Shown here: piece by piece, positions 3,191-59,034 of the stretch
Layout: each line of letters opens with the position of its first letter
Numbering within the stretch: position 1 is the stretch's first letter
Assembly: GCA_902581005.1 (NCBI GenBank)
Contig: CACHMT010000008.1
Span: 1-59,172, forward strand
Direction of reading: 5' to 3'
DNA from: an uncultured Alphaproteobacteria bacterium
GTDB taxonomy: Bacteria; Pseudomonadota; Alphaproteobacteria; Rhodobacterales; Rhodobacteraceae
Length of the DNA: 59,172 nt
The notes under the pieces: generated by a model
Told to the model about the DNA's origin: nothing
Databases searched by the model: none
The model's input: only the letters and a program-made list of their open reading frames with translations
Position numbers and translations under genes: made by a program

Positions 3191-3199
3191 TCTAACCTC

Positions 3200-5869: not shown

Positions 5870-5938
5870 ACTTAAAGTTTTAAACCATAAATGTTAAATA
5901 AAACTACCATCAAACTGATAAGCTGAAAAAGTTATTCT

Positions 5939-9049: not shown

Positions 9050-10999
9050 ATGAATTCTAAGCCTTGGATATTTAGAACTTATGCGGGCCATAGTTCGGCT
9101 TCAGCAAGCAACAAGCTCTTCAGAGATAATCTAAGTAAGGGCCAAACTGGCCTTTCAGTTGCTTTTGATCTACCAACCCAGACGGGTTATGATAGTGATC
9201 ACCAGCTAGCTAGGGGAGAAGTTGGAAAAGTTGGCGTTCCAGTCAATCATCTGGGCGATATGCAAACACTTTTCAACGACATTCCTATTGATAAAATGAA
9301 CACTTCAATGACAATAAATGCGACGGCACCGTGGCTTTTAGCTCTCTATATAGCCTTAGCAGAGAATCAAGACCTAAAAGTTAATGCATTGCAGGGCACT
9401 GTCCAGAATGACATCATTAAAGAATACTTGAGTAGAGGAACCTACATATTCCCACCAGAGGATAGTTTAAATTTAATCGCTGATGTCACAGAATATTGCT
9501 ACAGAAATATTCCGAAGTGGAACCCTATTAATATTTGTTCGTATCATCTCCAGGAAGCTGGGGCAACGATTGAAGAGGAGGTGGCCTTTGCAATTTCGAC
9601 TGCAACAGCAGTATTGGATAAAATTCGCCTTCGAGTGTCTGCTAAAGAGTTTCCCTTCATAGTAGGAAGGGTATCCTTTTTTGTTAATGCGGGAATAAAG
9701 TTTATTGGTGAAATCTGTAAAATGCGCGCCTTTGTGGACTTATGGAATGAAATATGTCTCACCAAATATGGTGTGAAAGAAGAAAAACTGAGACGGTTTA
9801 GGTATGGTGTACAGGTAAACAGTTTAGGGCTAACTGAACAACAACCTGAAAATAATGTTTACCGAATATTGCTCGAATTATTAGCTGTAACCCTCTCAAA
9901 AAATGCTAGAGCAAGAGCAATACAGCTTCCTGCTTGGAATGAAGCGATGGGACTTCCAAGGCCATGGGATCAGCAATGGTCTCTAAGAATGCAGCAAGTC
10001 TTAGCCTATGAAACAGACATTTTAGAGTATGAAGATATATTTGATCAAAACCCAATTATAGATAAAAAGGTTAAACAGATACTTGAACAAGTTAAAATAA
10101 AGGTAGCGAAAATTGACAAAATGGGCGGAACAGTAGCGGCCCTAGACTATATGAAAAGGGCTCTCGTTTCATCTAATGCAGAAAGGTTATCTAAAATTGA
10201 AAGTGGTAAAACAATCGTTGTTGGAGTTAATAAATTTACTACTTCTGAAAAAAGTGGCCTTTCCTCAGGGGACAGCAATAATGTACAGGTGGTTGATAAA
10301 GAAATAGAGAAAATTCAAATTTCGTCTCTTTTAGAGTGGAGATCGAGAAGAAATAATGATTTGGTTGAAAAGGCTAAAGAACAGCTAAAGAATGCAGCCA
10401 GAGAAAAAATAAATATAATGCCAGCGTCTATCGAAGCAGCAAAAGCAGGGGTTACTACAGGCGAATGGGCTGATACGATGAGAGAAGTGTTTGGAGAATT
10501 TAGAGCGCCAACAGGAGTGACTGTTTCAAAATCTTTAGACAGCGAAAGCCTACCTATGCTTCAAAAGAGAGTAAAAGAAGTAGCTAAAAAGCTTAAAAGA
10601 AATATTAAACTCTTAATAGGAAAGCCCGGCCTTGATGGACATTCAAATGGTGCTGAGCAAATCGCAATGAGGGCAAAGGAAGCTGGATTTGATGTTGTTT
10701 ACCAAGGAATTCGACTTACACCAAACCAAATAGTCAACTCTGCTTTAGAAGAGTCCGTTCACATTATTGGGTTATCAATACTGTCTGGGAGCCATCTAGA
10801 GATTTTAGAAGATCTTACAAACTTATTGAAAACAAAAAATATGACAAAAATACCAGTAATAGTAGGAGGCATTATACCTGAAAAAGATTTCGAAATTATT
10901 CGGAAAATGGGTGTGAAAAAAGTCTACACACCGAAAGACTATGATCTTAATACGATAATATCAGATATGTCGGATTTTGTTGAGCAGAGCGCTGCTTAG
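9050..10999 (+). CDS. ecm: Ethylmalonyl-CoA mutase, B12-dependent
   Basis: Converts (2R)-ethylmalonyl-CoA to methylsuccinyl-CoA. From the ATG at 9050 it has 649 residues and begins MNSKPWIFRTYAGHSSA, as in MeaA/Ecm proteins. An in-frame GTG at 8990 would add 20 non-conserved residues and is not preferred. The catalytic TIM-barrel domain starts with the family block LSVAFDLPTQTGYDSDH. The C-terminal B12 domain shows DxHxxG at residues 529-534 (His531 is the expected base-off cobalt ligand), followed by SILSG and a GG turn. It is divergent from ccr, the preceding pathway step, which separates it from methylmalonyl-CoA mutase. Confidence 0.94.
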   Translation: MNSKPWIFRTYAGHSSASASNKLFRDNLSKGQTGLSVAFDLPTQTGYDSDHQLARGEVGKVGVPVNHLGDMQTLFNDIPIDKMNTSMTINATAPWLLALYIALAENQDLKVNALQGTVQNDIIKEYLSRGTYIFPPEDSLNLIADVTEYCYRNIPKWNPINICSYHLQEAGATIEEEVAFAISTATAVLDKIRLRVSAKEFPFIVGRVSFFVNAGIKFIGEICKMRAFVDLWNEICLTKYGVKEEKLRRFRYGVQVNSLGLTEQQPENNVYRILLELLAVTLSKNARARAIQLPAWNEAMGLPRPWDQQWSLRMQQVLAYETDILEYEDIFDQNPIIDKKVKQILEQVKIKVAKIDKMGGTVAALDYMKRALVSSNAERLSKIESGKTIVVGVNKFTTSEKSGLSSGDSNNVQVVDKEIEKIQISSLLEWRSRRNNDLVEKAKEQLKNAAREKINIMPASIEAAKAGVTTGEWADTMREVFGEFRAPTGVTVSKSLDSESLPMLQKRVKEVAKKLKRNIKLLIGKPGLDGHSNGAEQIAMRAKEAGFDVVYQGIRLTPNQIVNSALEESVHIIGLSILSGSHLEILEDLTNLLKTKNMTKIPVIVGGIIPEKDFEIIRKMGVKKVYTPKDYDLNTIISDMSDFVEQSAA

Positions 11000-11012
11000 T
11001 TTACAACCTATC

Positions 11013-11789
11013 TTAGTTGTTCTGCAAATGTAACTTTTTTATCTCTGCTATAACTTTTGCAGGGTTTAAGCCCTTCGGACATGCCTTTGCACAATTCATT
11101 ATCGTGTGGCACCTATACAGTTTAAAAGAGTCGTTTAGGTCATCTAGCCTGGCTTTTCTATCCTGATCTCTGCTGTCGATAATCCATCGATATGCATGCA
11201 ACAATGCAGCTGGGCCTAAATATTTATCTCCATTCCACCAATAGCTTGGACAAGAAGTTGAACAGCAAGCACACATTACACATTCATAGAGTCCATCGAG
11301 TTCTTTTCTATCTTCCTCAGATTGCAACCATTCCTCATTCGGTTCGTCTGTAAAAGTTTCCAACCATGGTTTTATACTAGCATGTTGCTTGTAAAATTGA
11401 TTTAAGTCCGGAACCAAATCTTTGATTACTGGCAGATGAGGTAAAGGGTAAATGTTAATTGGTCCCTTAAATTCCTTCATTCCTTTAAGGCATGCAAGCG
11501 TATTGACCCCCCCAATATTCATTGAGCAAGAGCCACATATACCTTCTCTACAAGAGCGCCTAAAAGTTAATGTTGGATCTATCTCGTTTTTTATTTTTAT
11601 CAGCGCGTCCAATATCATTGGACCGCACTTATCAAGATCTACAAAAAAGGTATCTAAACGAGGGTTTTCGCTATCTTCTGGGTTGTATCGATATATTCTA
11701 ACTTCTTGTACATTTTCTGCGTCCGAAGGCTTTTCCCATGTAATACCTTCCATTACTCTAGAGTTTTTTGGTAATCTTAATTCCACCAT
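11013..11789 (-). CDS. sdhB: Succinate dehydrogenase iron-sulfur subunit
   Basis: A 258-residue complex II subunit. The N-terminal 2Fe-2S ferredoxin domain has the ligand block CREGICGSC near residues 80-88 and a later Cys. The C-terminal domain carries [17 protein letters not shown] and [14 protein letters not shown], the ligands for the 4Fe-4S and 3Fe-4S clusters. It passes electrons from the flavin of SdhA to ubiquinone. It is last in the order sdhC-sdhD-sdhA-sdhB, 3 bases after sdhA. Confidence 0.97.
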
Positions 11790-11792
11790 TTT

Positions 11793-13601
11793 TTAATAAA
11801 CCCTTGCTTTAGGTTTGATCTTTGCTGTATCTATTCCGCCATCCTTTATGTCACTTAGAGGTTTAGTAATTACATCCCTGTAGCTAACACTCACAAAACC
11901 ATTTTCCGATATCTTGGCTAGTGAGTGTACTCGCCAATTTTCATCATCCCTATCAGGATGGTCTTCCTGTGCATGAGCTCCTCTACTTTCTTTACGAGCC
12001 TCAGCGGAAACAATTGTTGCCAAAGCATTTGGCATTAAATTCGTAAGTTCCAATGTCTCCATTAAATCAGTGTTCCATATCATTGATTTATCGGTAACAT
12101 TTACGTAGTCTATGCCGGCGGCTATATCACCCATTTTTTCACAACCGTCTGATAAAGTCTTGTCTGACCTGAAAACCGCAGCGTCAGACTGCATCGTTTT
12201 TTGCATTTTCAATCTTAACTCAGCCGTAGGAGTTGTCCCCTTGGAAAATCTAAGTCGATCTAACCTGCCAATTGCTTGATCAACAGAGTTCTTATTTAAG
12301 GGCCTATTGCTTTCTTTCTTATCTACGACTTTAGCTGCCTTGATCGCGGCTGCTCTTCCAAAAACAACTAGGTCTATTAAGCTATTTGATCCTAAGCGAT
12401 TAGCTCCATGGACTGAAGCGCATCCCGCTTCACCAACAGCCATTAGTCCCGGCAATATTTTGTTTTGATCTTTTTCGTCAGGACTTATTACCTCGCCCCA
12501 ATAGTTTGTCGGGATACCACCCATATTGTAATGCACAGTTGGTAAAACTGGTATAGGATCCTTGTTTACATCGACCCCTGCAAAAATTCTGGCACTTTCC
12601 GATATGCCTGGGAGCCTTTCAGCTAATGTTTCAGGTGGAAGATGATTAAGATGCAAGAAGATGTGGTCTTTCTCTGATCCAACTCCGCGACCATCTCTTA
12701 TTTCCATTGTCATACATCTAGATACAACGTCCCTGCTAGCAAGGTCCTTGTAGGTTGGAGCATATCTCTCCATAAATCTTTCGCCATCAGAGTTAGTAAG
12801 ATATCCTCCTTCACCTCTAGCACCCTCGGTAATGAGACATCCAGCCCCATAAATCCCAGTAGGGTGAAATTGTACAAATTCCATGTCTTGAAGAGGTAAT
12901 CCTTGTCTCGCAACCATTCCATTCCCGTCACCAGTGCAGGAATGCGCGGATGTCGCAGAAAAATATGCTCTACCATATCCCCCAGTTGCTAAAACCACCA
13001 TCTTCGCATTAAACCTGTGTAGAGTTCCATCATCCAATTTCCACGCTATGATACCCTGACAAACACCATCTTCTGTCATTATTAAATCGATTGCAAAGTA
13101 CTCTATGAAAAACTCGGCATTGTTTTTTAATGATTGGCCGTAAAGAGTGTGTAGAATTGCGTGACCGGTACGATCAGCTGCGGCACAAGTTCGTTGCACA
13201 GGAGGTCCTTCACCAAATTCTGTAGTGTGTCCACCAAAGGGCCTTTGATAAATCTTGCCTTCCTCCGTTCTAGAAAATGGCACTCCATAATGTTCTAGCT
13301 CATAAACAGCTTTTGGCGCCTCCTTTGCGAGATATTCCATTGCATCACTGTCTCCTAGCCAATCTGACCCTTTTACCGTATCATACATATGCCAATGCCA
13401 ATGATCTGGTCCCATATTTGATAGCGATGCGGCAATTCCCCCTTGGGCAGCCACTGTGTGACTTCTGGTCGGAAATAGCTTAGTTACACAGGCGGTTTTT
13501 AGGCCTTGCTCAGCCATCCCAAGAGTTGCTCTCAACCCGGCACCGCCAGCTCCTACCACTACTACGTCATAGACGTGGTCTGTGATTTCATATGAATTCA
13601 T
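11793..13601 (-). CDS. sdhA: Succinate dehydrogenase flavoprotein subunit
   Basis: A 602-residue catalytic subunit oxidising succinate to fumarate. It has an N-terminal dinucleotide-binding GAGGAGLRA (about residues 17-25). His48 in [10 protein letters not shown] is the residue that carries covalent FAD. The substrate-site block [21 protein letters not shown] lies near residues 247-267, and the capping and C-terminal domains are complete. The start overlaps sdhD by 4 bases. Full family length with no anomaly seen. Confidence 0.97.
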
Positions 13602-45758: not shown

Positions 45759-47882
45759 TTGTTTAGAAATCGGATTTGTATCTTTCTTAACTTGCTTATC
45801 TCGGTCCTCTTAACCACTATTAATGAAGTCAATGCCTCGGAAGGAATATATGAAACGCCGAGAATTCTTAACACTTATGGTATGCCTGGGAGTATTGACA
45901 CTCCTACAGCTGAGGTGTTCCCTGAAGGCCAGTTTTCAGTTTCATCCTCCATTTTTGGCGGCACAATCAGAACGAACCTCTCCTTTCAGGTAACAAATGG
46001 TGTGACGGTAAGCTTTAGGTACGCAAGAATACCAAGTGCTCGTGGTAATCACCGCGGGTACTTTTGGGATAGGAGCTTTGATATTCATTATTTGTTCAAT
46101 GAGCAAAAAAAATACCTCCCTTCAATAGCAATAGGTTTGCGGGACTTTATCGGTACAGGTCTTTATACCGGTGAGTACTTAGTTGCTACAAAAAATATAA
46201 CTCAAAATATAAAGATTTCCGGTGGGTTAGGGTGGGGTAGATTATCTGGAAAGAACAATAAAGCAAATATTTTTGGCTTAAGCAATGAACGTATTGCCTT
46301 TTCAACTGGATTTGGCGGAACATTACACTCAAACCATTTTTTTTCTGGTAGTAACTCCCCATTTTTTTCTTTGTCTTATGATTTAAGCCCAAGGCTCGAG
46401 ATTATTGCTGAAATATCTTCGGATGATTATGGTATGGAAGTTGCAACTTCGAGGGGGTTCAAACGAAGAAATGACGTCAATTTCGCTTTAAAATACGAAT
46501 TGGCGCAAGGATTTTCTCTGATGGGGAAGCTGATGCATGGTGATGCAATTGGCTTAAGTGGTACATTAGCGCTTAACCCCAGAAACAACCCCTATAAAAG
46601 TGGGATAGAACCGGCACCATTGCCACTATTAGGAAATAAAGCTCTTATAGAAACCCAGTCTCTAATGAAAAGTGATATTTTTTCTGAAAGTGCAGAGCTC
46701 TTAGAATTAGATGGCATCATTTTACTTACAATGAAGATAGAGAATAAGTTCGTGAATGTTGAAGTTTTTGATAGAAACTATCTAGATGTGTCACAAATGA
46801 TAGGTAGGGTGGCTAGAGTTTTATCTAAGACAGTTCCTTTAAGTGTAGAATTTTTTAAAATTAAGGTAGTTGACTACCAAGCCGGATATTCGGTTTCAAA
46901 AATAATAATTGAAAGAGAAAGTTTAAGAGAATTTGAATTGAAATTTGATGGTCCGGCTAGCCTTTGGAAGGATGTGCAAATCGAGAATGCATCAGCAGGA
47001 ATAAATTCATCTTTTACCCTGTCAGATAGTCCTACAACTTGGTCTTTCTATCCTGATGTTGATTTACTGCTTTTTGACCCCCACTTCCCTATAAACGGTA
47101 GCCTTGGATGGGAGGCTACGTTGTCTTACAGAATAAACAATTCGACTATAATCAATAGCTCGGTCAAACAACCTATACTTACAGCCCTTAACGAGATTAA
47201 ACGAGGTCCAAAATCTGGGCTCCCCAATGTCAGGTCTGATTTTATGTTCTACTACAGAGACATAAGTACACGACCATATATTAGTAGTCTAACAATTGAT
47301 CAATTTTACAAACCTTTCAAAAACATTTATGGACAGATAAATTTTGGTTACCTTGAAATGATGTATGCTGGGATAAGAGCAGAAGCAATTTGGAAGGATG
47401 CAAATAAGCCTTATGCCATTGGTTTAGACTTAGCAAGTATTAATAAGAGAAATACATATGGGGACTTTTCTATTCTTAGTAATAACTATTCAACTATAAT
47501 CGGATCAGTATATTACGATTTTCAGAGTGATTGGAATGTCCAATTGGATGCAGGGCGATATCTTGCAGGTGATTACGGGACGACATTTTCCTTATCAAGG
47601 AACTTCAATAACGGATGGGAGATTGGTGCGTATGCAACTTTAACTAACGTAAAGTTCTCTACTTTCGGTGAGGGTTCTTTTGATAAGGGAATTACTTTGA
47701 AAATACCTCTGTCTTGGTTTACAGGAAAAAAATCTCAGGCTTACTCAAAATCTGTTATCAGACCAATTACTGGGGATGGAGGAGCACGTCTTCATTTGGA
47801 TGATGACAAGTTTTTATATCGTAATATTGCGAGGTATGGCGAGAGAAGCTTTAATAAAAATTGGAAGAGAGTCTATCGATGA
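45759..47882 (+). CDS. yjbH: YjbH-domain exopolysaccharide outer-membrane protein
   Basis: A 707-residue protein with a TTG start directly after the previous TGA and a signal peptide (about 1-27, ending EVNAS). The mature start ETPRILNTYGMPGSIDTPTA is typical of YjbH/GfcD-type proteins. The C-terminal half is rich in alternating strands and aromatic residues, consistent with a beta-barrel (for example YYDFQSDWNVQLDAGRYLAG). In E. coli, yjbEFGH is an exopolysaccharide operon. Here YjbH is followed by YjbF- and YjbE-like genes. Confidence 0.86.
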   Translation: MFRNRICIFLNLLISVLLTTINEVNASEGIYETPRILNTYGMPGSIDTPTAEVFPEGQFSVSSSIFGGTIRTNLSFQVTNGVTVSFRYARIPSARGNHRGYFWDRSFDIHYLFNEQKKYLPSIAIGLRDFIGTGLYTGEYLVATKNITQNIKISGGLGWGRLSGKNNKANIFGLSNERIAFSTGFGGTLHSNHFFSGSNSPFFSLSYDLSPRLEIIAEISSDDYGMEVATSRGFKRRNDVNFALKYELAQGFSLMGKLMHGDAIGLSGTLALNPRNNPYKSGIEPAPLPLLGNKALIETQSLMKSDIFSESAELLELDGIILLTMKIENKFVNVEVFDRNYLDVSQMIGRVARVLSKTVPLSVEFFKIKVVDYQAGYSVSKIIIERESLREFELKFDGPASLWKDVQIENASAGINSSFTLSDSPTTWSFYPDVDLLLFDPHFPINGSLGWEATLSYRINNSTIINSSVKQPILTALNEIKRGPKSGLPNVRSDFMFYYRDISTRPYISSLTIDQFYKPFKNIYGQINFGYLEMMYAGIRAEAIWKDANKPYAIGLDLASINKRNTYGDFSILSNNYSTIIGSVYYDFQSDWNVQLDAGRYLAGDYGTTFSLSRNFNNGWEIGAYATLTNVKFSTFGEGSFDKGITLKIPLSWFTGKKSQAYSKSVIRPITGDGGARLHLDDDKFLYRNIARYGERSFNKNWKRVYR

Positions 47883-48571
47883 TGAGAACAATTTTTGTCC
47901 TTCTCTCTTTATTATGTTTATCTTGTTCCTCTGATAGCATTATTAGTTCCGAAAAAACCTTATTATACAAAATTTATAAAGATGTTATAAAGACGAAGCC
48001 TGCTTCTAGTCCATCAAAAGATATTAATGAAAAAATATTATATGACAAAGCATGGCTTTCTAAATTTAATTACCCCATAATATTACTTTCTTCACTGGAT
48101 GGTAAAAACACTGCTACCTTAGTTGCCCTAGGTAATTATAAGGATAAACTGACATGGGTTAGCGCAGATGGAATTAGCGTCAGCTTTTTAAACGGAATAT
48201 TAATAGCCACAAGGGGTTACTCAGAGGATTTAATGGAATCACAACACAATGATTTAAACACCTTATTTTCCAAAAACACAAAAAAGCGAATAAAAAAATA
48301 CAGATACCTAAATGGTGAAAATCAGTATAGAGAATTAACTTTTACTTGTACTGTTGTAGAAAAAACAAATACCCCTTCCTTTTTCTTAGACATGAAGCTT
48401 GAAACAACAAAATTTACTGAAACTTGTAAAGCAAGTACTACTGGCCATACTAACGAATATTACGTTCTACCCAATACAAGTATTGTCCTAAAATCAAAAC
48501 AGTGGATAAGTGAAACAAATGGATCCATAAATATATATAACTATTATGCTTTCCAAAATAACTTATTCTAG
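47882..48571 (+). CDS. yjbF: YjbF/GfcB family lipoprotein
   Basis: A 229-residue lipoprotein with a short hydrophobic signal and Cys15 at the end of LLCLSC as the lipidation site. The residue at -3 is an unusual Cys. The start is one of two tandem ATG codons (47879 or 47882) overlapping the yjbH stop. The body has a YjbF-like strand-rich sequence with RYLNGENQYRELTFTC (about 133-148). It probably pairs with YjbH in polysaccharide export or modification. Family assignment is from sequence feel plus position. Confidence 0.78.
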   Translation: MRTIFVLLSLLCLSCSSDSIISSEKTLLYKIYKDVIKTKPASSPSKDINEKILYDKAWLSKFNYPIILLSSLDGKNTATLVALGNYKDKLTWVSADGISVSFLNGILIATRGYSEDLMESQHNDLNTLFSKNTKKRIKKYRYLNGENQYRELTFTCTVVEKTNTPSFFLDMKLETTKFTETCKASTTGHTNEYYVLPNTSIVLKSKQWISETNGSINIYNYYAFQNNLF

Positions 48572-49799: not shown

Positions 49800-50894
49800 T
49801 TGAGTAATCCTACCCTTTCTGTCGTGATCCCAACCTATAATGAGAAAGACAATATTTCCAAAATATTGGAGAAGTTAAAGAAAGTATTAAAGAGTATTAC
49901 TCATGAAATTATATTTGTGGATGATAATAGTCCCGATGGAACCAGTGCAGTAATAAAAGATTGTATTAAGAACTCCTCGAAAATTCGCCTAATTCATAGA
50001 ATTGGAAGAAAAGGGCTGGCTGGAGCTGTTATCGAAGGGGTATTTGCTGCGAACGCTGACTTGGTTGCGGTGATGGACTGCGACTTACAGCATGATGAGT
50101 CTAAGCTTATAGATATGATCAATTTATTTTCCAAGAATAATTCACTTGATATTGTTATCGGGAGTAGGTTTACAGAAACAGGAGAAATTACTGAAAAAGC
50201 TTTCTCCAAAATGCGCAAATTAGGTAGTAAGGCCACAACTCTTATAATTAAGAAAGTACTGAACATAGAGTCTACCGATCCTTTATCAGGTTTCTTTATG
50301 GTAAAAAAAGAATCCTTTTTAAAGAGTTCAGAAAGTTTGCAAACTCAGGGGTTTAAAGTGCTTGCAGACTTTTTAGCAACATCCGGAAATAATATAGAGA
50401 TTAAGGAGATCGGATATAAATTTAAAAATAGAACCGCAGGCGAAAGCAAGATGAGTATATTAACCGCCTTGGAGTTGATTGGTCTAGTTTTGTCTCAGTT
50501 ACTAAAAGGCAGAGTATCTATAAGATTTATACTTTTCTGCATGGTTGGACTTAGTGGTATCTTTGTTCAATTATTAATTACTGGTCTCGCAATGCTGTTA
50601 ATTAACCAGTTCCCCACTTCACAAACATTAGGAATAGTTGCAGCAATGACATCAAACTATTTTCTGAATAACGTCACTACATTTCAGGAGCGAAAGTTAA
50701 AATCTCTAGACTTAATTAGAGGATTGTTTTCGTTTTACCTTATTTGTTCTCTAGGCGCGTTTACAAATATCGCTATCGCAACCTACGTTTTCGGTTTTTC
50801 ATCTAATTGGCTTATTTCAAGCTTTATTGGAGCTTGCTTCGGCGCAGTTTGGAATTTTACACTGACATCTATTTTCACTTGGAAGTCTAGGTGA
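49800..50894 (+). CDS. Polyprenyl-phosphate sugar synthase: GT2 domain fused to GtrA-like flippase domain
   Basis: A 364-residue fusion. Residues 1-230 are a DPM1/GtrB-type GT2 domain with SVVIPTYNEKDNI, EIIFVDDNSPDGT and the Asp-x-Asp-like MDCDLQHD (about 92-99). Residues about 235-360 are four membrane helices of the GtrA type, which helps flip polyprenyl-phosphate sugars. The start is TTG, supported by AAAGGAGA 7 bases upstream. The next gene is an ArnT-like GT39, which uses exactly such lipid-linked sugars, so the pair probably forms a transfer module. Confidence 0.87.
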   Translation: MSNPTLSVVIPTYNEKDNISKILEKLKKVLKSITHEIIFVDDNSPDGTSAVIKDCIKNSSKIRLIHRIGRKGLAGAVIEGVFAANADLVAVMDCDLQHDESKLIDMINLFSKNNSLDIVIGSRFTETGEITEKAFSKMRKLGSKATTLIIKKVLNIESTDPLSGFFMVKKESFLKSSESLQTQGFKVLADFLATSGNNIEIKEIGYKFKNRTAGESKMSILTALELIGLVLSQLLKGRVSIRFILFCMVGLSGIFVQLLITGLAMLLINQFPTSQTLGIVAAMTSNYFLNNVTTFQERKLKSLDLIRGLFSFYLICSLGAFTNIAIATYVFGFSSNWLISSFIGACFGAVWNFTLTSIFTWKSR

Positions 50895-50898
50895 GAAA

Positions 50899-52365
50899 AT
50901 GAAAAGCAAAGCATATAATCAAACTCACTTGCTTATATTTTTGTTCATTATTTTCTGTCTTACAAAACTTACAGTAGTAAAACATCTCCCCTTGATAAAC
51001 GATGAAGCTTATACGCTAACAATTAGTAGATACTTTTCTCTATCGTATTTTGATCATCCCCCATTTATGATGTGGATTTCATATTGTTTACATTTACTTG
51101 AAGTTTTTCAGTTACATATTTTTAGAGCTCCTTTCATTGGTTTTGGTCTATTAACAAGCTTCTTTCTATATAAAATCACATCGACATTTTATTCAAAGCA
51201 GGCTGGAACCGTTGCAGCAATTCTATATTTTATTTCTCCTTTTTTCTTTTTCTCAGGGGGTCTTTTTATTGTGCCAGATGCTTCTTTAAATTTCTCTGTC
51301 GCAGGTGCGACGTATATAGCAATAAGATTGATTTTTAATAAGGAAGATAATATCTATTTATGGCTTTCGCTAGGCCTACTATTATCAATAGCATTTCTAT
51401 CAAAATACCAAGCTTATCTTTTTGGAATAACTCTATTTATCGCTTTCGTTATATGGAGAAGAAATGTGCTATTCACAGTAAACTTTTATATTTCTGTATT
51501 AATTTCTATACTCGGATTGTTGCCCGTATTTCTTTGGAATATGGAGAATAACTTTGATAGCTTCAATTTTCATGGAAACAGAAGCTCATTCGGCTTTGAT
51601 CTTATTCACATTATTAACTCTATATTTGCGCAACTTTTCTTGTTGCTACCAACTACTGGTTTTTTAGTTATCAAAAGTTTATTGAAAAAAAAAAATTTCA
51701 TTACTAAAGATGAAAAATTTCTGATTCTCCTGTCTCTACCAACGATAATTATATTTAACATTTTAATTTTATTTTCCGATAACAGTTTTGCTCACTGGTC
51801 TATGGTTGGATGGATGTTATTGATTCCTGTTGCATCAAACCATCTTATCTTGATGAAATCATACAAACATCATCTGATAACTTTAAAAGTCGCTAGTGTT
51901 TTTTTAATCATCGTCATGATTTCGAGTATTTTAATTCATGCAAAAACAGGTTTCATCACTAGAAGCTTTGATCAGAAAATACCGAGATGGGATAATACTA
52001 GGGAGCTTCTGGATTGGGGACATATTGCGGACATTCTGACAAAAACTCTTCAGAAAAAAGAATTAGAGTCTTTAGCAACACTTAATTGGTATGACAGTGG
52101 ACAACTAACCGCGTCTTTTTATTACAACTACCGCGTGGGTGTAATCGGTCCAAATGGAAATCATTTTAAATATATTGATCTGACGAAAAGAAATTTTACT
52201 ACGCTAATTGATGTTCAACTTATTCACAGTAATGAGCATGGTGATTTATCGGAGAAAATTCTGCCCTATAATTATTATATAACTAACAAAGTTGATATAC
52301 CTTTTTATAGAGGCTTGCGCCAGTATGGAATTATCAGTGTAATTTCAATAGAAAAAATTCAATAA
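50899..52365 (+). CDS. ArnT-like GT39 glycosyltransferase
   Basis: A 488-residue integral membrane protein with about 12 hydrophobic segments. The first periplasmic loop holds INDEAYTLTISRYFSLSYFD (about 34-53), whose acidic residues are catalytic in GT39/ArnT enzymes, followed by HPPF. It would move a sugar from polyprenyl phosphate to lipid A, a glycan or a protein. It starts 4 bases after the GtrB-GtrA fusion. A second protein of the same family lies at the end of the window on the other strand. Confidence 0.85.
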   Translation: MKSKAYNQTHLLIFLFIIFCLTKLTVVKHLPLINDEAYTLTISRYFSLSYFDHPPFMMWISYCLHLLEVFQLHIFRAPFIGFGLLTSFFLYKITSTFYSKQAGTVAAILYFISPFFFFSGGLFIVPDASLNFSVAGATYIAIRLIFNKEDNIYLWLSLGLLLSIAFLSKYQAYLFGITLFIAFVIWRRNVLFTVNFYISVLISILGLLPVFLWNMENNFDSFNFHGNRSSFGFDLIHIINSIFAQLFLLLPTTGFLVIKSLLKKKNFITKDEKFLILLSLPTIIIFNILILFSDNSFAHWSMVGWMLLIPVASNHLILMKSYKHHLITLKVASVFLIIVMISSILIHAKTGFITRSFDQKIPRWDNTRELLDWGHIADILTKTLQKKELESLATLNWYDSGQLTASFYYNYRVGVIGPNGNHFKYIDLTKRNFTTLIDVQLIHSNEHGDLSEKILPYNYYITNKVDIPFYRGLRQYGIISVISIEKIQ

Positions 52366-52627: not shown

Positions 52628-53362
52628 ATGAAAAAAAAGTTAAAAACTATTTGTATCATTCCCGCTAGAGGTGGTTCTAAGGGATTACCAGGAAAGAATT
52701 TGCGAATTTTTAATGGAAAACCACTGATAGCCTGGCCGATTATAGCGGCTACGAACTGTAAGAGGATAGATAATGTAATCGTAACCACAGATAGCGAAGA
52801 AATTGCTATACAAGCAAAATTATATGGAGCTCAAGTTCCATCTTTAAGGCCACCTAATCTAGCCCAAGATAACACTACCACTGAAGCAACTTTAAGAGAT
52901 GCATTAGATAAATTTGAAAAGCTTACAAAACAACAATTCGATATATGTGTTTTCCTAACCTGCACAGACATTTTTAGAGATACCAATTGGCTTACTAATG
53001 CTATAAGGACGTTAGAGAAAAATGATGCTCTAGAGTCCGTTTTTGCTGCTCATTCAACTCACAAAAATTTCTGGCAAAGAAATAAGGATGGAAAATTGAA
53101 AAGAATTTCAAAAAAAATGAAAGTTTATTCGAGCAGACAGGAGAAAGAACCAATATATAGGGAAGATACAGGACTGGCGTGTGCTTCTAGATCTTATTTG
53201 TGGCGTAGTGGAAAGAGAATAGGGAATAACGTTGAAATAATAATTAATAATAACTTTGAAACATCAATAGATATTCATAATGAGTTTGATTTTTTCTTAG
53301 CAGAGAAAGCGCTTGAATATTTAAAAAAAAATAATCCCGAAAAGGTAAAACTATTCCTATGA
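52628..53362 (+). CDS. Acylneuraminate-type cytidylyltransferase (CMP-sugar synthetase)
   Basis: A 244-residue nucleotidyltransferase. The CTP-binding loop is intact as IIPARGGSKGLPGKN (about 9-23). VIVTTDSEEIA (about 49-59) and the later SLRPPNLAQDNTTT are typical of NeuA/PseF/KdsB relatives. It would couple CMP to a 2-keto-3-deoxy acid sugar. It is the first gene of a five-gene operon and overlaps the next by ATGA. The actual sugar is unknown; no NeuB or NeuC homologue is present. Confidence 0.85.
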   Translation: MKKKLKTICIIPARGGSKGLPGKNLRIFNGKPLIAWPIIAATNCKRIDNVIVTTDSEEIAIQAKLYGAQVPSLRPPNLAQDNTTTEATLRDALDKFEKLTKQQFDICVFLTCTDIFRDTNWLTNAIRTLEKNDALESVFAAHSTHKNFWQRNKDGKLKRISKKMKVYSSRQEKEPIYREDTGLACASRSYLWRSGKRIGNNVEIIINNNFETSIDIHNEFDFFLAEKALEYLKKNNPEKVKLFL

Positions 53363-54705
53363 ATATAAATGCTGAACCTTCACCTCCTCTGGTTTCAATA
53401 ATTATAAGAACAAAGAATGAGGAAAGATGGATAGACCATTGTTTGAGTGCTGTAGCTACGCAAAGCATAAAAGACTATGAAATTATATTGGTTGATAATA
53501 ACTCCGACGACAATTCCGTAAAAATCGCAAAAAAATACACAGACAAAATTATAAATGTAGCTCAATTTTATCCAGGCAAAGCTATAAATGAAGGTATCAG
53601 GGCTTCATCTGGTAAATTTGTCGTCATTATATCTGGACATTGTATTCCGAAAAATAATATGTGGCTTCAGAAATTAATTGAGCCGCTAGAAAACGATCAA
53701 ACCGGTTTACTTGCTGGTGTTTATGGCCGCCAAGAACCCTTATCTTCTACCTCGGCATTAGATAGAAGAGATCTTACTGTTGTTTTTGGGTTAGATGAAC
53801 GAACTCAGAGAAAGGATAGCTTTTTTCACAATGCCAACAGTGCATTAACACGAGATATGTGGAAGAAATTTCCGTTTGATGAAACCATCACTAATATCGA
53901 AGACAGATTATGGGGTTCCGAGGTTATAAAAAATGGATATCATATCTTTTACACACCTCATGCCTGCGTTTACCACCACCACGGTATAAATCATGGGGGA
54001 AAAGTTGACAGAGCTAAAAAGATTGTAAATATCATTGAAAATTTAGAGGGCGTACCGGCCTCCCTTTCAAAGCTGATAATAAATAAGCTGAATATAATCA
54101 GCATAGTTCCTATCAAAGGATTGCCGACTACTTTTGAGGGAAAAAACTTATTGGTCGAAAGTATAAAATACCTCAAGTCTTGTAATCTCATTTCAGAAAT
54201 TTACGTATCAACAGATAACGAAGATACTGCAAAGGTAGCTAGAGATAATGGTGCACTAGCCCCTTTTATAAGACCAATTGAACTTTCAGCTGAAAATGTA
54301 AGTTTGCCAGACGTATTAAAATATACTATTGAGGAAATAGAAAAAATTAGGAATGTTGATTTAGTAGTTATTGCAGAAGAGAATTATCCATTCCGACCAA
54401 CAGGATTACTTACCAAATTGATAAATAATATCATTGACGGTGGATACGACACAGTGTGTGCGTCAGTTATTGAACAGAGAAGTATCTGGTTAGACTCTAA
54501 GGATCAAATTAATGCGATTGGAGATACCAAAATGATGTCAAGAAGCATTAAACCTGAAAAAATACATATAAATTTATTTGGTTTGGGAGCGGTAACGTAT
54601 GTAGATAACATAAGAAAAAACACAATCTTGACCAATAATATAGGACTTTCCCCTGTTCCCAAATATCCATATTCGTTTCAAATTGATAACCGAGACCAAT
54701 CATGA
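53359..54705 (+). CDS. Fusion of GT2 glycosyltransferase and degenerate cytidylyltransferase domain
   Basis: A 448-residue two-domain protein. Residues about 8-215 are a GT2 domain with SIIIRTKNEERWIDHCL, EIILVDNNSDDNS and the acceptor-side TNIEDRLWG. Residues about 235-445 resemble a CMP-sugar synthetase: IYVSTDNEDTAKVARDNGA and APFIRPIELSAENV align with the standard pattern. The CTP loop has become VPIKGLPTTFEGKN and has lost most of the Arg-Gly-Gly-Ser-Lys part, so activity of that half is doubtful. It overlaps both neighbours by 4 bases. The domain pairing suggests activation and transfer of one sugar are physically linked. Confidence 0.78.
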   Translation: MNINAEPSPPLVSIIIRTKNEERWIDHCLSAVATQSIKDYEIILVDNNSDDNSVKIAKKYTDKIINVAQFYPGKAINEGIRASSGKFVVIISGHCIPKNNMWLQKLIEPLENDQTGLLAGVYGRQEPLSSTSALDRRDLTVVFGLDERTQRKDSFFHNANSALTRDMWKKFPFDETITNIEDRLWGSEVIKNGYHIFYTPHACVYHHHGINHGGKVDRAKKIVNIIENLEGVPASLSKLIINKLNIISIVPIKGLPTTFEGKNLLVESIKYLKSCNLISEIYVSTDNEDTAKVARDNGALAPFIRPIELSAENVSLPDVLKYTIEEIEKIRNVDLVVIAEENYPFRPTGLLTKLINNIIDGGYDTVCASVIEQRSIWLDSKDQINAIGDTKMMSRSIKPEKIHINLFGLGAVTYVDNIRKNTILTNNIGLSPVPKYPYSFQIDNRDQS

Positions 54706-55793
54706 ATAAAGAAAAGATAAAAATAGGCATTCTTGGATGCGGCCGCGTATGCGAACATTATATACAGAAAATATTAATATCAGAAAGAGTTGGCACCCTT
54801 TACCAAGTCATTGCTTGTTGTGACGTGGACAAAGAGAAAAGCACATATGTTGGAAATATATTTTCCTGTAGATCGTATAACAATATTGAAAAGTTTGTTA
54901 AGCACAAAGAAATGGAAGTAGTTCTTATACTCACCAAAAGTGGCCAACACTACGAACACTCAAAAATATGCATGTTGAATGGTTTGAATGTAATAGTAGA
55001 AAAACCATTATCCCTTAGAATAGAGCACGCAACCGATTTAATTAACATTTCATCTAAAACTGGGAAGTTTTGTTCCTCAATCTTTCAGAATAGGTTGAAC
55101 CCAGCGGTTGAAGTTACTAAAAATGCCTTTGAAAAAAACAGGTTTGGCAATTTAGTATCAGTATCTGTAAGACTTAGATGGTGTAGACTCCAAGAATATT
55201 ATAACGATGGTTGGCACGGAACTTGGGCACAGGATGGCGGAGTTACAAATCAGCAAGCTATTCATCATGTCGATGCTCTCACGTGGATATGTGGAAGCGC
55301 AAAATCTGTCAGTGCAATATCAGCTAAGAGAGCGAATGATTTACAAGCAGAGGACACACTGGTGGCAGCTATTGAGTTAGAAAATGGCGGTTTAGCAACC
55401 TTAGAGCTTACGACAGCCGCAAGACCAAAAGATCTTGAGGCATCAATAACTATTACGGGAACAAAAGGCGTCGTGCAAATTGGAGGAGTAGCTCTGAACA
55501 AGATTGAGCAGTGGAATTTTTCTGACTCCATTGATAGTGAAAAGGACATAACCAACCAATATTCTGAGGAAGTTGATAATGGTTATGGTATAAGTCATTA
55601 CAGACAACTCAAAAAGATTTATCAAACCTTCAGAAATGGTCAAATCGATAAAGTCCCATTCCTAGCAAAAGAATGTATTCATACCCTAAGACTTATACAC
55701 TCAATTTATGCTAGTGAGGCAAAAGGTCGAAAAATATATTTATCAGAACAGATAAGTAGCTCAAAGCTAGGAATAGAAAATGATACAAAATAA
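54702..55793 (+). CDS. Gfo/Idh/MocA-family oxidoreductase
   Basis: A 363-residue NAD(P)-dependent sugar dehydrogenase. The Rossmann start KIGILGCGRVCEHYIQK (about 6-22) and the conserved NVIVEKPLSL (about 96-105) are clear. A Gln-His-x-x-Asp-like segment (QQAIHHVDALTW, about 185-196) supplies the probable catalytic His. The C-terminal GFO domain is complete. In this operon it probably oxidises, reduces or epimerises a precursor of the activated sugar. It overlaps the DAHP-synthase-like gene by 14 bases. Confidence 0.85.
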   Translation: MNKEKIKIGILGCGRVCEHYIQKILISERVGTLYQVIACCDVDKEKSTYVGNIFSCRSYNNIEKFVKHKEMEVVLILTKSGQHYEHSKICMLNGLNVIVEKPLSLRIEHATDLINISSKTGKFCSSIFQNRLNPAVEVTKNAFEKNRFGNLVSVSVRLRWCRLQEYYNDGWHGTWAQDGGVTNQQAIHHVDALTWICGSAKSVSAISAKRANDLQAEDTLVAAIELENGGLATLELTTAARPKDLEASITITGTKGVVQIGGVALNKIEQWNFSDSIDSEKDITNQYSEEVDNGYGISHYRQLKKIYQTFRNGQIDKVPFLAKECIHTLRLIHSIYASEAKGRKIYLSEQISSSKLGIENDTK

Positions 55794-56673
55794 GGCTCCT
55801 GGAAAAGATGTCTCACTTGAAGATATGGCAGAAAAGTTCCCTTTAGCGTCAAAAAAAAATAATACACACTTTTCCAAGTTTGATATTGGCGGTATCACTT
55901 TCGGAGATAGTTTAATCCCTATTATGGCAGGGCCAAATATGGTTGAAAGTGAGAAACTTATTGTTGAAACGGCAATTAATGTTAAGAAAGCAGGAGCTCA
56001 TTTTTTGAGAGGTGGTGCTTTCAAGCCCTTGAGCTTTCCCTATAGATCCGATAAATATACTGAAACGCGTGAAGAAGGAATAGGGTGGCTGGGTGTTGCA
56101 AAAAAGGAAACTGGCCTGGGAATTATAACAGAAGTCATGGAAGAAAGGTACCTAGACCTAATTTGCGAAGTAACTGACATACTGCAAATTGGCTCAAGAA
56201 ATATGCAAAATTATCCATTGATTTCAGCAGCGGCAAAAACTAAAAAACCTTTGATGATAAAGAGACACTTTGGTGCATCACTGAGAGATTGGCTTGGTGC
56301 AGCTGAATATGCGCTTTATGAAGGTAACGAGAAAATTATCTTATGTGAGCGAGGTGTCACAGTTCCCCATACACATAGAGATTCATCTAGATTTTTATTA
56401 GACCTACAGGTTGTACCTGCTGCAAAAGAGATAACGCACTTACCAATAGCCGTGGACCCATCCCATGCTACCTTCTGGCGTCCGTGGGTTACACCAATGT
56501 CGCTCGCTAGTGTAGCCGCTGGCGCGGACAGTATAATGCTTGAGGTTCATCCTGATCCTGAAAATTCGGCTGTTGACCCCCTTCAACCCATAGATTTCGA
56601 TAGTTTTAAAAAGCTAATGCAAAGCATGGATAAAGTAGCCCATATTAATGGAAGACATATATTAAATGTTTAG
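55780..56673 (+). CDS. DAHP-synthase-like (type I beta) PEP aldolase with Cys-to-Asn metal-site change
   Basis: A 297-residue TIM barrel related to DAHP synthase, which joins PEP to erythrose 4-phosphate. There is a short N-terminal extension (1-45) and no ACT regulatory domain. Matching blocks are TEVMEERYLDLICEVTDIL, QIGSRNMQNYPL and VDPSHAT. Metal ligands His229, Glu255 and Asp266 are present, but the ligand Cys of GPC is Asn53 (GPNMVES). The acceptor motif KPRT reads Lys82-Pro-Leu-Ser (KPLSFPY). Both changes suggest a different metal need and aldose acceptor. It sits among CMP-sugar genes, so a role in an ulosonic acid pathway is inferred; plain aromatic synthesis is the alternative. Confidence 0.82.
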   Translation: MIQNKAPGKDVSLEDMAEKFPLASKKNNTHFSKFDIGGITFGDSLIPIMAGPNMVESEKLIVETAINVKKAGAHFLRGGAFKPLSFPYRSDKYTETREEGIGWLGVAKKETGLGIITEVMEERYLDLICEVTDILQIGSRNMQNYPLISAAAKTKKPLMIKRHFGASLRDWLGAAEYALYEGNEKIILCERGVTVPHTHRDSSRFLLDLQVVPAAKEITHLPIAVDPSHATFWRPWVTPMSLASVAAGADSIMLEVHPDPENSAVDPLQPIDFDSFKKLMQSMDKVAHINGRHILNV

Positions 56674-57556
56674 ACATCTTAATAAGATCATAGAAAATCA
56701 GATCAAGGAACCAAACTTAGACTTTTACAGTGTTATCGTTGGTACAAAGCCTTCTGTGGGAGCAAGATCTCCAAAATTATGGAACAAAGTTTACAAATTC
56801 GAAGAAAAAAAAGTCCGGATGATACCACTAGATGTTGATGAAGGGAAGATCGAACTGCTTTTCAACTACTTGAAGCAAGATAAGCATTGTTTGGGAGGCG
56901 CTGTTGCTGTTCCTTATAAGGAAACAGTATTTAATCTTATAAAAGATAATGTGGAGGTAGAGATAAAAGCTATTGGTGCTGTAAACTGTTTTTATCGCCC
57001 GCCATCTGGTTCTTTAATCGATGATTTTACAGGAACCAACACCGATGGTGAGGCAGCCTTAGAACCTATAAAAAGGCAACTCACAGAAAGTCAAAACCTA
57101 AATATAGGCCTTTTGGGGTTTGGTGGTGCAGGCAAAGCAATATTAGCTTTTCTTCTGAAGAATTATAAAAAAAGTCATAGTATAAAAGTATTTAATAGAA
57201 GTACCAATCACACAAATAATGCTAGAAAAATTGGAGTAGAGACATATTCACTTAACGATTTAGACTGCTATCTCCCAGATCTAGATTTAATGATCAATTC
57301 AACATCTGTAGGCCATATTGAAAATACTCAAAAAACTATAGTGTCTGCGCAGTTGCTTGCAAAAGCAAAAAAAACTATCGTTGTTTACGATATTATTTAC
57401 AATCCAATAAAAACCCCCTTGATCAAAAATAGCGAAGACTTAGGTTTGAAAACTATTAACGGGTTAAGCATGAATCTTTTTCAGGCTGTTCTCGCTTATC
57501 GTTACACAAATCCGACCAGCTTATCTTTAGAAGAGATATATAAAACTATGAATTAA
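56666..57556 (+). CDS. Shikimate-dehydrogenase-like oxidoreductase
   Basis: A 296-residue AroE-family protein. The catalytic Lys (VAVPYKE), Asn (GAVNC) and Asp (GTNTDG) are conserved, as is the NADP fold GLLGFGGAGKA with a following NRS. The N-terminal carboxylate-binding Ser-x-Ser-Pro of true AroE is altered to GARSPKLWN, keeping only the second Ser. It overlaps the DAHP-synthase-like gene by 8 bases and ends with a stop shared with the convergent GT39. It may reduce a 3-keto group of a sugar acid or cyclitol acid. Ordinary shikimate dehydrogenase is possible but less likely from context. Confidence 0.78.
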   Translation: MFRHLNKIIENQIKEPNLDFYSVIVGTKPSVGARSPKLWNKVYKFEEKKVRMIPLDVDEGKIELLFNYLKQDKHCLGGAVAVPYKETVFNLIKDNVEVEIKAIGAVNCFYRPPSGSLIDDFTGTNTDGEAALEPIKRQLTESQNLNIGLLGFGGAGKAILAFLLKNYKKSHSIKVFNRSTNHTNNARKIGVETYSLNDLDCYLPDLDLMINSTSVGHIENTQKTIVSAQLLAKAKKTIVVYDIIYNPIKTPLIKNSEDLGLKTINGLSMNLFQAVLAYRYTNPTSLSLEEIYKTMN

Positions 57557-59034
57557 TCAATCCTTGTTCCCAAAAAAACCTGATACTTTTTTATAAATTC
57601 ATTATTTGCATAGATATCTATATCTTGAATAAGCTCTATGGACTCAAAACTCGATGAAATCTTTTGTCCAATTGGGAAGTTATTATCAGTAAGTATTAAA
57701 GTTTTAGTTGCGAACTTTTTATCTTTACTTCTCCAGACATCAAACTGTGTCTTTCTTTTTTCCATTACCACATCAGCGTCATAGTCACCTGAGTGAAAAA
57801 TGTATAAAGAACCTAATCTATAGTCAGAAAAAATCACTTCTTCTATTCCTCGTTCTTTCTTTTCTTTGCGAACAGTCTCTATAATGGTATCCCAACCAAA
57901 CAAGATAGCTGTTTCTCTATCTGTTTTTCCAAAAAATGTGCCTATCGGAAAAATACTAATATTTAAAAATAAAACCAACGAAATTAGCATTCCATAGAAT
58001 ATATGAATATACTGCCACATTTTTGATTTTATAATTTGATTTAAGAATGGAATAAGTAAAACTATCGCCGGAGTTAGCCAGTAGTATAATACATTGGTAA
58101 AATATGACAAAACGGTACAGATAGTTATTGAGAAAACAAAGACAAACCTTCCCATTTTAATAAAGTTTGTTTTGCCATTACTATAGCTATCGAAAATAGA
58201 ACTATCCTTTAAATTAAATATAAAAATCGGGGAAAAAGCTAAAAGCACCCCCGAAAAAAAGCCCAGTAAATTTTTTAAAACTCTAGTGAGATCTTTTCCA
58301 TCATCCAATCTTTCTTTTAAATGAAAAGAAAAAGAAGCAAAATCATTGGTGAAGTTCCATAGAACAACAGGTGTTTGAATTAAAAAAATTATAAAAACTG
58401 ATACAATTATGTGCCCATATGAAGGGCCATTTAAATGTTTTTTATAGTACAGAATGTAAGTTAAAACTCCTGCACCAAGTAGGATAGAATTATATTTAGT
58501 GAGCAAAGCGAAAGAAAAAAAAAGTGATGCCAGGTACCAGTAATGAATTCCGTTACTGCCATTATTTCTTTCAAAATACAAAAAAAGACAGAAAGAGCTT
58601 AAGCATAACAAGGTAATTAGTAGATGATCAGGAAAAGAAATGGAAAAGAATATAGAAAATATTGGAAATGCCAAAAAAAGTATAACATATTTTAGATATA
58701 TATCGAAGTCTATTTTTCTAAACATGCGTTGTTGCCACACTATCATAATACTTAATAGAGTAGCTAGACTAACTAAGGGAAGTAATCGGATTACATAATA
58801 CTTATCATCAAATAAATATCCTACCAAAGCTTGGACCCATGCACTGAATGGCGGATGATCAAAATAAGAGAGTGCGATGTTCTTAGACCATAACCAATAG
58901 TATGCCTCATCAGGTAGTGGATTGGCGTATATAAAAAAAAGAACTTTTATTGTCATAAAAAATGACAAAGCAAAAAGCAAGAAAACACGCTCTGAAAGTC
59001 CAGTAATATCTTTAACAGGAGTTTTTTTTGTCAA
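57553..59034 (-). CDS. ArnT-like GT39 glycosyltransferase, second copy
   Basis: A 493-residue multi-spanning membrane protein. The first loop reads PLPDEAYYWLWSKNIALSYF (about 35-54) then DHPPFSAW, sharing the Asp-Glu-Ala-Tyr and Tyr-Phe-Asp-His-Pro-Pro-Phe pattern with the GT39 at 50899-52365. The two therefore look paralogous or at least close in family. It is convergent with the AroE-like gene. The last 138 bases of the window (59035-59172) hold no supportable gene. Confidence 0.85.
   Translation of the reverse strand: MTKKTPVKDITGLSERVFLLFALSFFMTIKVLFFIYANPLPDEAYYWLWSKNIALSYFDHPPFSAWVQALVGYLFDDKYYVIRLLPLVSLATLLSIMIVWQQRMFRKIDFDIYLKYVILFLAFPIFSIFFSISFPDHLLITLLCLSSFCLFLYFERNNGSNGIHYWYLASLFFSFALLTKYNSILLGAGVLTYILYYKKHLNGPSYGHIIVSVFIIFLIQTPVVLWNFTNDFASFSFHLKERLDDGKDLTRVLKNLLGFFSGVLLAFSPIFIFNLKDSSIFDSYSNGKTNFIKMGRFVFVFSITICTVLSYFTNVLYYWLTPAIVLLIPFLNQIIKSKMWQYIHIFYGMLISLVLFLNISIFPIGTFFGKTDRETAILFGWDTIIETVRKEKKERGIEEVIFSDYRLGSLYIFHSGDYDADVVMEKRKTQFDVWRSKDKKFATKTLILTDNNFPIGQKISSSFESIELIQDIDIYANNEFIKKYQVFLGTRID

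Follow-up and report, generated by a model that had tools for sequence, protein, structure and literature searches.

The DNA analyzed here (hereafter the window) is a stretch of 59,172 nucleotides from an uncultured alphaproteobacterium of the family Rhodobacteraceae (GenBank assembly GCA_902581005.1, contig CACHMT010000008.1), and the present work concerns an operon of five forward-strand genes at 52,628–57,556 that includes a relative of 3-deoxy-D-arabino-heptulosonate 7-phosphate (DAHP) synthase. The first open reading frame (ORF; 52,628–53,362, +) encodes a 244 aa cytidine monophosphate (CMP)-sugar synthetase, a cytidylyltransferase resembling PseF and NeuA (PF02348, CTP_transf_3, 87 bits). 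It is followed by a 448 aa protein (53,359–54,705, +) with a glycosyltransferase family 2 (GT2) domain (residues ~1–230; PF00535, Glycos_transf_2, 88.5 bits) and a cytidylyltransferase-like domain (~245–435) whose nucleotide-binding loop is lost. The third gene (54,702–55,793, +) encodes a 363 aa Gfo/Idh/MocA dehydrogenase of the WlbA type (PF01408/PF02894, GFO_IDH_MocA), the fourth (55,780–56,673, +) a 297 aa phosphoenolpyruvate (PEP) aldolase that forms a distinct subfamily of the DAHP synthase family (DAHP_synth_1; TIGR01361, 273.6 bits), and the fifth (56,666–57,556, +) a 296 aa AroE-like dehydrogenase (Shikimate_dh_N/Shikimate_DH; TIGR00507, 128 bits). These genes are labelled CMPs, GT2CT (the GT2 and cytidylyltransferase-like fusion), GFO, DAHP and AROE, respectively. 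Consecutive ORFs overlap by 4, 4, 14 and 8 bases, bearing out the overlapping arrangement claimed in an earlier note on this DNA, and the family names given there agree with the Pfam and NCBIfam profiles.

The aldolase had been suspected to differ from ordinary DAHP synthases, and its residues uphold this. In all 53 sequences compared (the window protein and its relatives at 52 loci, described below), the metal-binding Cys of the AGPC motif is replaced by Asn53 (AGPN) and the Arg of the KPRT motif, at the erythrose 4-phosphate (E4P) site, by Leu84 (KPL[ST]). The PEP-binding residues and the remainder of the metal site (R77, K82, R140, K161, R191, H229, E255 and D266) are retained, while R89, E95-T96, H197-T198-H199, A230-T231-F232-W233 and W236 are invariant additions. 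The hallmarks of the subfamily are therefore AGPN, KPL[ST]FPYRS, an HTH insert and DPSHATFW; two further members from a separate draw share the AGPN, KPLTFPY and HTH features, and a type I-beta relative in the same class that is not part of such a cluster (L021) has AGPC and KPRT. Type I-beta DAHP synthases (Pyrococcus, Aeropyrum, Thermotoga and Bacillus type) have the same fold, are 36–41% identical to the cluster aldolase and share its R77, K82, R140, K161, R191, His229, Glu255 and Asp266. The aldolase differs from them in the Cys-to-Asn change at the metal site and the Arg-to-Leu change at the E4P site, as well as in its new ETR and HTH inserts, its DPSHATFW tail and its own operon partners. 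A passage of PMC3052366 reports that, in 3-deoxy-D-manno-octulosonate 8-phosphate (KDO8P) synthase, a Cys-to-Asn change divides metal-free from metal-dependent enzymes, further changes being required for good activity. DAHP synthases reported so far are described as metalloenzymes throughout in PMC6362186 (see also PMC6435475), which also presents R67/T68 of KPRT as E4P contacts in the Thermotoga maritima DAHP synthase complex.

The structural model of the aldolase is a TIM barrel (pLDDT 88.8; apart from residues 1–10, confidence is lowest at 81–90 and 191–210), and Foldseek places it nearest to the type I-beta DAHP synthases (1vs1, E-value 1.9e-32). Because the Cys metal ligand and the E4P Arg are lost, the PEP residues are kept and the fold is nearest to type I-beta, the protein is, judged from its sequence, a DAHP-synthase descendant with both the metal and the aldose sites altered. 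Against the KDO8P synthase profile (TIGR01362) it scores 82.4 bits with a cut-off of 314, and it carries KPL in place of the KANR motif. The match to NeuB (PF03102) is partial at 26.4 bits (cut-off 22.1), fell below the cut-off in the whole-genome search (21.3) and is far weaker than those to the DAHP synthase models. The score for the PseI equivalog (22.7 bits) lies below its cut-off of 340.25. The earlier suggestion of a heptulosonate is weakened, since the invariant loss of the E4P-binding Arg does not favour a C7 product made from E4P.

The 52 aldolase loci were collected in a pattern-based scan that took the window protein as its seed and searched GTDB species genomes, so that close relatives are favoured. 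Fifteen of them, at 79–96% aldolase identity, were taken as the window's genus and the other 37 lie at 66–78%. The latter include Pelagibacter ubique HTCC9565, four Prochlorococcus records (MIT 9302 among them), Marinomonas ostreistagni, Denitromonas iodatirespirans, Azospirillum halopraeferens, a SAR324 metagenome-assembled genome (MAG) and Rhodospirillaceae MAGs; some single-amplified-genome records titled Prochlorococcus or Pelagibacteraceae may include foreign contigs. Genes at the loci were counted by tblastn, the ORF caller having missed genes in the G+C-rich loci L062, L068, L076 and L081. In 39 of the 52 loci (window genus, SAR11, Prochlorococcus, Marinomonas, Denitromonas) all five genes are present and none lies more than 10 kb from the aldolase, which is more than chance and shows that the set is conserved in other genomes, a check the earlier note had proposed. 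When the 721 ORFs of the loci were clustered, the five families were the most shared (49, 44, 43, 40 and 38 loci); three further families (14, 11 and 11 loci) represent the flanking genes of the window genus, and every other family occurs in at most 10 loci. The partners lie on the strand of the aldolase almost throughout (GFO 43/43, AROE 43/44, CMPs 43/45 and GT2CT 40/40 ORFs), and adjacent pairs are mostly spaced by −35 to +40 bases. AROE directly follows DAHP in 32 loci, and GFO stands immediately next to DAHP in 36. In several SAR11 loci the gene order is altered (GFO-AROE-DAHP, with the others apart) and the set retained, a pattern better explained by selection than by simple common descent of the block.

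Thirteen loci are incomplete. Eight (L035, L038, L050, L052, L066, L072, L081 and L082) end less than 1.5 kb from the aldolase on one side, and the remaining five are L054, L056, L059, L068 and L076. A search at E-value 1e-25 recovered the GT2 fusion in six of the 13 genomes, at the locus for L038 and L059, elsewhere in the genomes of L054, L068 and L081, and as the GT2 domain only for L076. In this last genome, that of Azospirillum, the GT2, the pseudo-cytidylyltransferase and the CMP synthetase are each encoded by a gene of their own; the three genes are neighbours, located 17–20 kb from the aldolase on the same contig.

Concerning its wider distribution, the aldolase is present at 79% identity or more in 16 of 22 genomes of the window's genus, and at that level in none of 15 other members of the family and none of 24 sampled from the class. 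An even draw of 398 Pseudomonadota genomes gave three matches at E-value 1e-70 or better, including the source genome itself; the other two have 73 and 62% identity. Horizontal transfer of the cluster appears likely, because the aldolase tree intermixes SAR11, other alphaproteobacteria and Prochlorococcus; its deep support is weak and a single origin per group is possible. Carriage by viruses or plasmids was considered and set aside. A scan of viral contigs with six peptide patterns gave no relative of the aldolase, a plasmid search at E-value 1e-60 gave a single match (41% identity), and phage records at E-value 1e-20 gave 10 matches, all unannotated and below 60% identity. Nine of the 10 bear the names of phages of Listeria, Staphylococcus or Enterococcus; these matches are taken as probable ordinary B. 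subtilis-type DAHP synthases. Outside the genus, the aldolase is conserved far above its partners (median identity 72% vs. 33–45%), as if its reaction were fixed while the other steps vary.

The separate synthetase keeps its nucleotide loop intact (ARGGSKGLPGKN in the window protein). The ARxGSKxxxxKN pattern is present in 42 rows of the alignment, which leaves out the methyltransferase-fused synthetases, one of the rows (L061) reading ARTGST. The protein scores 122 bits against PseF (TIGR03584, cut-off 205.7). In the fusion protein, the C-terminal half has no Pfam call, reaches 52 bits to PseF and has the fold of a CMP-sugar synthetase (6ifd, TM(target) 0.74 at 2.5 Å). A homologous domain is thus present, as the earlier note had it, but the (A)RxGSKxxxxKN loop is lost in 41/41 sequences, so that the domain is unlikely to be a second active cytidylyltransferase. 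At the expected DxD-type site, placed by position in a region where alignments are weak, the GT2 domain reads S-[GA]-H-C in 41/41. A DxD motif binds metal and diphosphate donors; its loss would suit a CMP donor, since the latter carries a single phosphate. A homologue of the fusion gene with one in-frame TGA was also seen (G468, contig C328, 912–2,189).

Regarding the dehydrogenases, alignments were restricted to ORFs of at least 75% of the length of the window gene. The closest solved relatives of the GFO protein are 3q2i (198 bits) and 3q2k (184 bits), followed by a next match at 56 bits. The two entries are labelled only "dehydrogenase" and "oxidoreductase", and we take them to be WlbA of Chromobacterium and Bordetella. 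The similarity to WlbA (a UDP-GlcNAcA 3-dehydrogenase) is nearly full length, and the signatures EKP, QNR, W-R-QEYY and DGG show little or no variation across 43 members of the GFO family; unlike in WlbA systems, no aminotransferase partner of the WlbC/WbpE type was recognised among the shared genes. PMC10622841 cites a study of the Chromobacterium and Bordetella WlbA in connection with the 3-dehydrogenase step on the UDP-ManNAc3NAcA route. The AroE-like protein retains Lys85, Asn107, Asp127, Tyr245 and Gln273 in 45/45 sequences. The catalytic roles of Lys85 and Asp127 are taken from E. coli AroE. All 45 have Ala33 where the ordinary AroE of the source genome has the first substrate-binding Ser, and Ser35 is kept; the roles of these two positions are assigned on the assumption that S14 and S16 of E. 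coli AroE are the pair of Ser residues that bind the substrate carboxylate. The score of 128 bits to TIGR00507 lies below its cut-off of 200.2. A solved member of the AroE family, 5-ketofructose reductase (7cok), acts on a sugar, and a sugar substrate would therefore not be strange for this fold.

The operon lies in a surface-polysaccharide region, as indicated by YjbH and YjbF exopolysaccharide/group 4 capsule genes (45,759–48,571, +; PF06082, 513 bits, and PF11102, 86 bits), PagL, a GT2-GtrA protein of the polyprenyl-phosphate sugar synthase type (49,800–50,894, +; PF00535 and PF04138) and a PMT_2 (ArnT-like) glycosyltransferase (50,899–52,365, +; PF13231, 56.6 bits), all upstream. A second PMT_2 glycosyltransferase lies downstream and is convergent with the operon (57,553–59,034, −; PF13231, 54.3 bits). 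The surface-glycan setting expected by the earlier note is supported by these neighbours. The source genome (1.53 Mb in 68 contigs, 72.7% complete; the window lies on contig C8) also holds a KdsA on contig C6 (392.6 bits to TIGR01362), which is its other PF00793 match, and the separate, ordinary AroE that had been looked for, on contig C1. The statement that neither NeuB nor KDO8P synthase is present holds for the cluster and not for the genome, given this KdsA and two NeuB-family genes on contigs C22 and C2.

Several variations were observed at individual loci. Eight of the 41 loci with a clustered synthetase ORF have a second, distant synthetase type; five loci (L054 at 5,917–7,086, L057, L058, L063 and L075), all within those eight, carry an enolase-superfamily (MR_MLE) gene and may have a variant product or pathway. 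In L050, L051, L055 and L060 (e.g., L060 at 2,145–3,893, the one of the four scanned) the synthetase carries a fused O-methyltransferase-like domain, a hint that the sugar may be methylated in some SAR11. A radical SAM/SPASM protein adjoins the module in 10 of 52 loci (e.g., L063 at 6,277–7,194), and a carbamoyltransferase is located in or near the cluster in four (L065 at 10,885–12,699, L046, L059 and L080). Judged by eye, PEP-mutase/nucleotidyltransferase-like and thiamine diphosphate-binding decarboxylase-like proteins stand head to head with the aldolase in L054 (854–2,439) and are possible SAR11 phosphonate genes, and transaldolase-like and GmhA-like sugar isomerase genes adjoin it in L068 (6,679–9,944), a possible hint to the supply of the aldose.

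Taken together, these data support a real and conserved pathway of five genes, probably mobile, that is of the CMP-ulosonic-acid kind and includes a new subfamily of aldolase. The operon probably encodes a route to a CMP-activated 3-deoxy-2-ulosonic acid that is neither 3-deoxy-D-manno-octulosonate (Kdo) nor, from its genes, a nonulosonic acid. The aldolase would condense PEP with an aldose other than E4P and, like the metal-independent KDO8P synthase, without a divalent metal, yielding a 3-deoxy-2-ulosonic acid. The aldose would more likely be unphosphorylated, as in NeuB, because the shared genes include no recognised phosphatase and the KPRT Arg is lost. The AroE-like and WlbA-like dehydrogenases may then adjust the product at a single ring carbon, C4. 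A 2-ulosonic acid in pyranose form (a carbon bearing OH and COOH, then CH2, then CHOH) would resemble quinate. The hydroxyl on which AroE and quinate enzymes act lies 1,3 to the carbon that bears the carboxyl, and the corresponding site on the ulosonic acid would be C4, the centre formed by the aldol step. WlbA oxidises C3 of UDP-GlcNAcA, which is likewise 1,3 to the carboxyl-bearing carbon. Oxidation and reduction as a pair would give the C4 epimer, and one of the enzymes alone a 4-keto sugar; the adjacency of DAHP with AROE (32 loci) and of GFO with DAHP (36 loci) fits consecutive steps. The separate cytidylyltransferase would make the CMP-sugar and the GT2 domain, with no DxD, would transfer the sugar from the CMP donor to a surface polysaccharide. 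The fused pseudo-cytidylyltransferase may hold or hand over the CMP-sugar.

Compared with known systems, the proposed pathway resembles that of metal-independent KdsA in having Asn for the metal Cys and in a product that would also be CMP-activated. It differs in the score (82 vs. 314 bits), the lack of KANR, the lack of a recognised KdsC-like phosphatase among the shared genes and the existence of a separate KdsA. With the NeuB/LegI/PseI and NeuA/PseF pathways it would share the logic of PEP and a free aldose, CMP activation and transfer, and its synthetase is PseF-like. However, a DAHP-synthase relative takes the place of NeuB, no NeuB-type synthase lies in the operon (the strong NeuB matches being only on C22 and C2), two dehydrogenases are added, and no shared aminotransferase or hydrolysing epimerase was recognised.

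A number of observations weigh against the proposed pathway. The aldolase still exceeds the cut-off of the DAHP synthase profile TIGR01361 (267.75 bits), and with the fold and score of a DAHP synthase it may still use E4P. R89, R97, R234, H197 and H199, invariant or nearly so, could form a new phosphate or carboxylate site. A passage in PMC6362186 terms the E4P binding mode unclear, and the docking reported there makes no use of R67/T68. Neither the source genome nor one distant host, a Thiotrichaceae MAG, shows a second DAHP synthase. No phosphatase or sugar-freeing gene was recognised by eye among the families found in at least four loci, of which only some were scanned. In five of the 39 complete loci the synthetase is only of a distant type (27–32%), the search for the GT2 fusion gave nothing in seven of the 13 genomes with an incomplete locus, and Azospirillum had no AroE-like or GFO match in the two stretches examined. 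Finally, outside the genus the distances of the synthetase correlate with those of the aldolase at 0.11 (0.22 for the main type only), compared with 0.55–0.67 for the other three partners (ORF pairs with fewer than 100 shared columns were dropped).

This last point also bears on an alternative with two separate products. The CMP synthetase and the GT2 protein would act for an ordinary nonulosonic acid that NeuB homologues elsewhere in the genome produce, and the other three enzymes (aldolase, AroE-like and Gfo) would form or alter another part of the same glycan. With two NeuB-family genes in the source genome, the PseF-like synthetase, which co-evolves least with the aldolase, could serve such a sugar, and a NeuB-like family, named by eye, occurs at 10 of 52 loci. 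On the other hand, 32 of the 39 loci with all five genes have no member of that family in the stretch examined, the main-type synthetase correlates with GFO and GT2CT at 0.63–0.66, and in the window the synthetase comes first in the overlapping operon; we consider this alternative unlikely. Somewhat more doubtful is a carbocyclic product, an aminoshikimate- or quinate-like decoration fed by the aldolase and the AroE-like enzyme. Clusters of the 3-amino-5-hydroxybenzoic acid (AHBA)/aminoshikimate type also bring together relatives of DAHP synthase and of AroE with a Gfo/Idh/MocA enzyme. The same three families here, the DAHP-AROE order in 32 loci and the Lys85, Asp127, Asn107 and Gln273 kept by the AroE-like protein agree with this. 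However, the E4P residue is lost, CMP activation is generally typical of ulosonic acids and not of cyclitols, and the CMP synthetase and GT2 present here set the operon apart from AHBA clusters, whose cyclase and aminotransferase were not recognised. No dehydroquinate synthase-like partner was recognised by eye among families in at least four loci, with eight proteins scanned and no search with an AroB model.

The least probable of the explanations, rejected as an account of the operon, is that a DAHP synthase and a shikimate dehydrogenase of the aromatic pathway have diverged, still function there and lie in a glycan cluster by chance. It draws on the TIGR01361 score and on the two genomes with no other visible DAHP synthase: the source genome, 72.7% complete, where no class II enzyme was found, and a Thiotrichaceae MAG (G071), the one among 11 distant hosts with neither a class II enzyme nor a further PF00793 match. 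Against it, a class II DAHP synthase is found in 17 of the 22 genomes of the genus, comprising 11 of the 16 cluster carriers and all six genomes in which the cluster gene was not found. Class II enzymes are also present in six of the distant hosts, and four others have a further PF00793 match, so that 10 of 11 hold another candidate. These further matches (in G063–G066) score 304–327 bits vs. 173–184 for the cluster gene and are read, from length and score, as probable type I-alpha DAHP synthases. The invariant loss of the metal Cys and the E4P Arg and the presence of an ordinary AroE also speak against it. A second DAHP synthase or a candidate for one, which the earlier note had asked for, is present in most relatives and is not visible in the source genome. 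That note had named a sole DAHP synthase and AroE, or genes that do not co-occur, as grounds for giving up its proposal; for the most part neither was found, and the gap is the DAHP synthase of the source genome.

The CMP-ulosonic-acid pathway thus remains the reading we prefer. Its fullest form is more tentative, and we hold it with somewhat less than even confidence: a metal-independent descendant of DAHP synthase that uses an aldose other than E4P, an AroE descendant that edits C4 of the product as if it were a heterocyclic quinate, and a five-gene cassette spreading among SAR11, Prochlorococcus and other marine bacteria and decorating their surfaces. Searches of the openly licensed PMC literature brought up no paper that describes this five-gene set in its title or the opening of its abstract. 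All five proteins are of small size, and at 60–78% identity to the window protein outside the genus the aldolase is conserved enough to be screened directly for substrates. Bacteria of the SAR11 and Prochlorococcus groups rank with the most abundant in the ocean, and phages recognise surface sugars; to our knowledge, little is known of the surface sugars of these two groups. If the proposed pathway is true, it would be a third natural route, beside those of NeuB and KdsA, to CMP-activated keto-acid sugars, and enzymes of the shikimate pathway would have been recruited into glycan synthesis.

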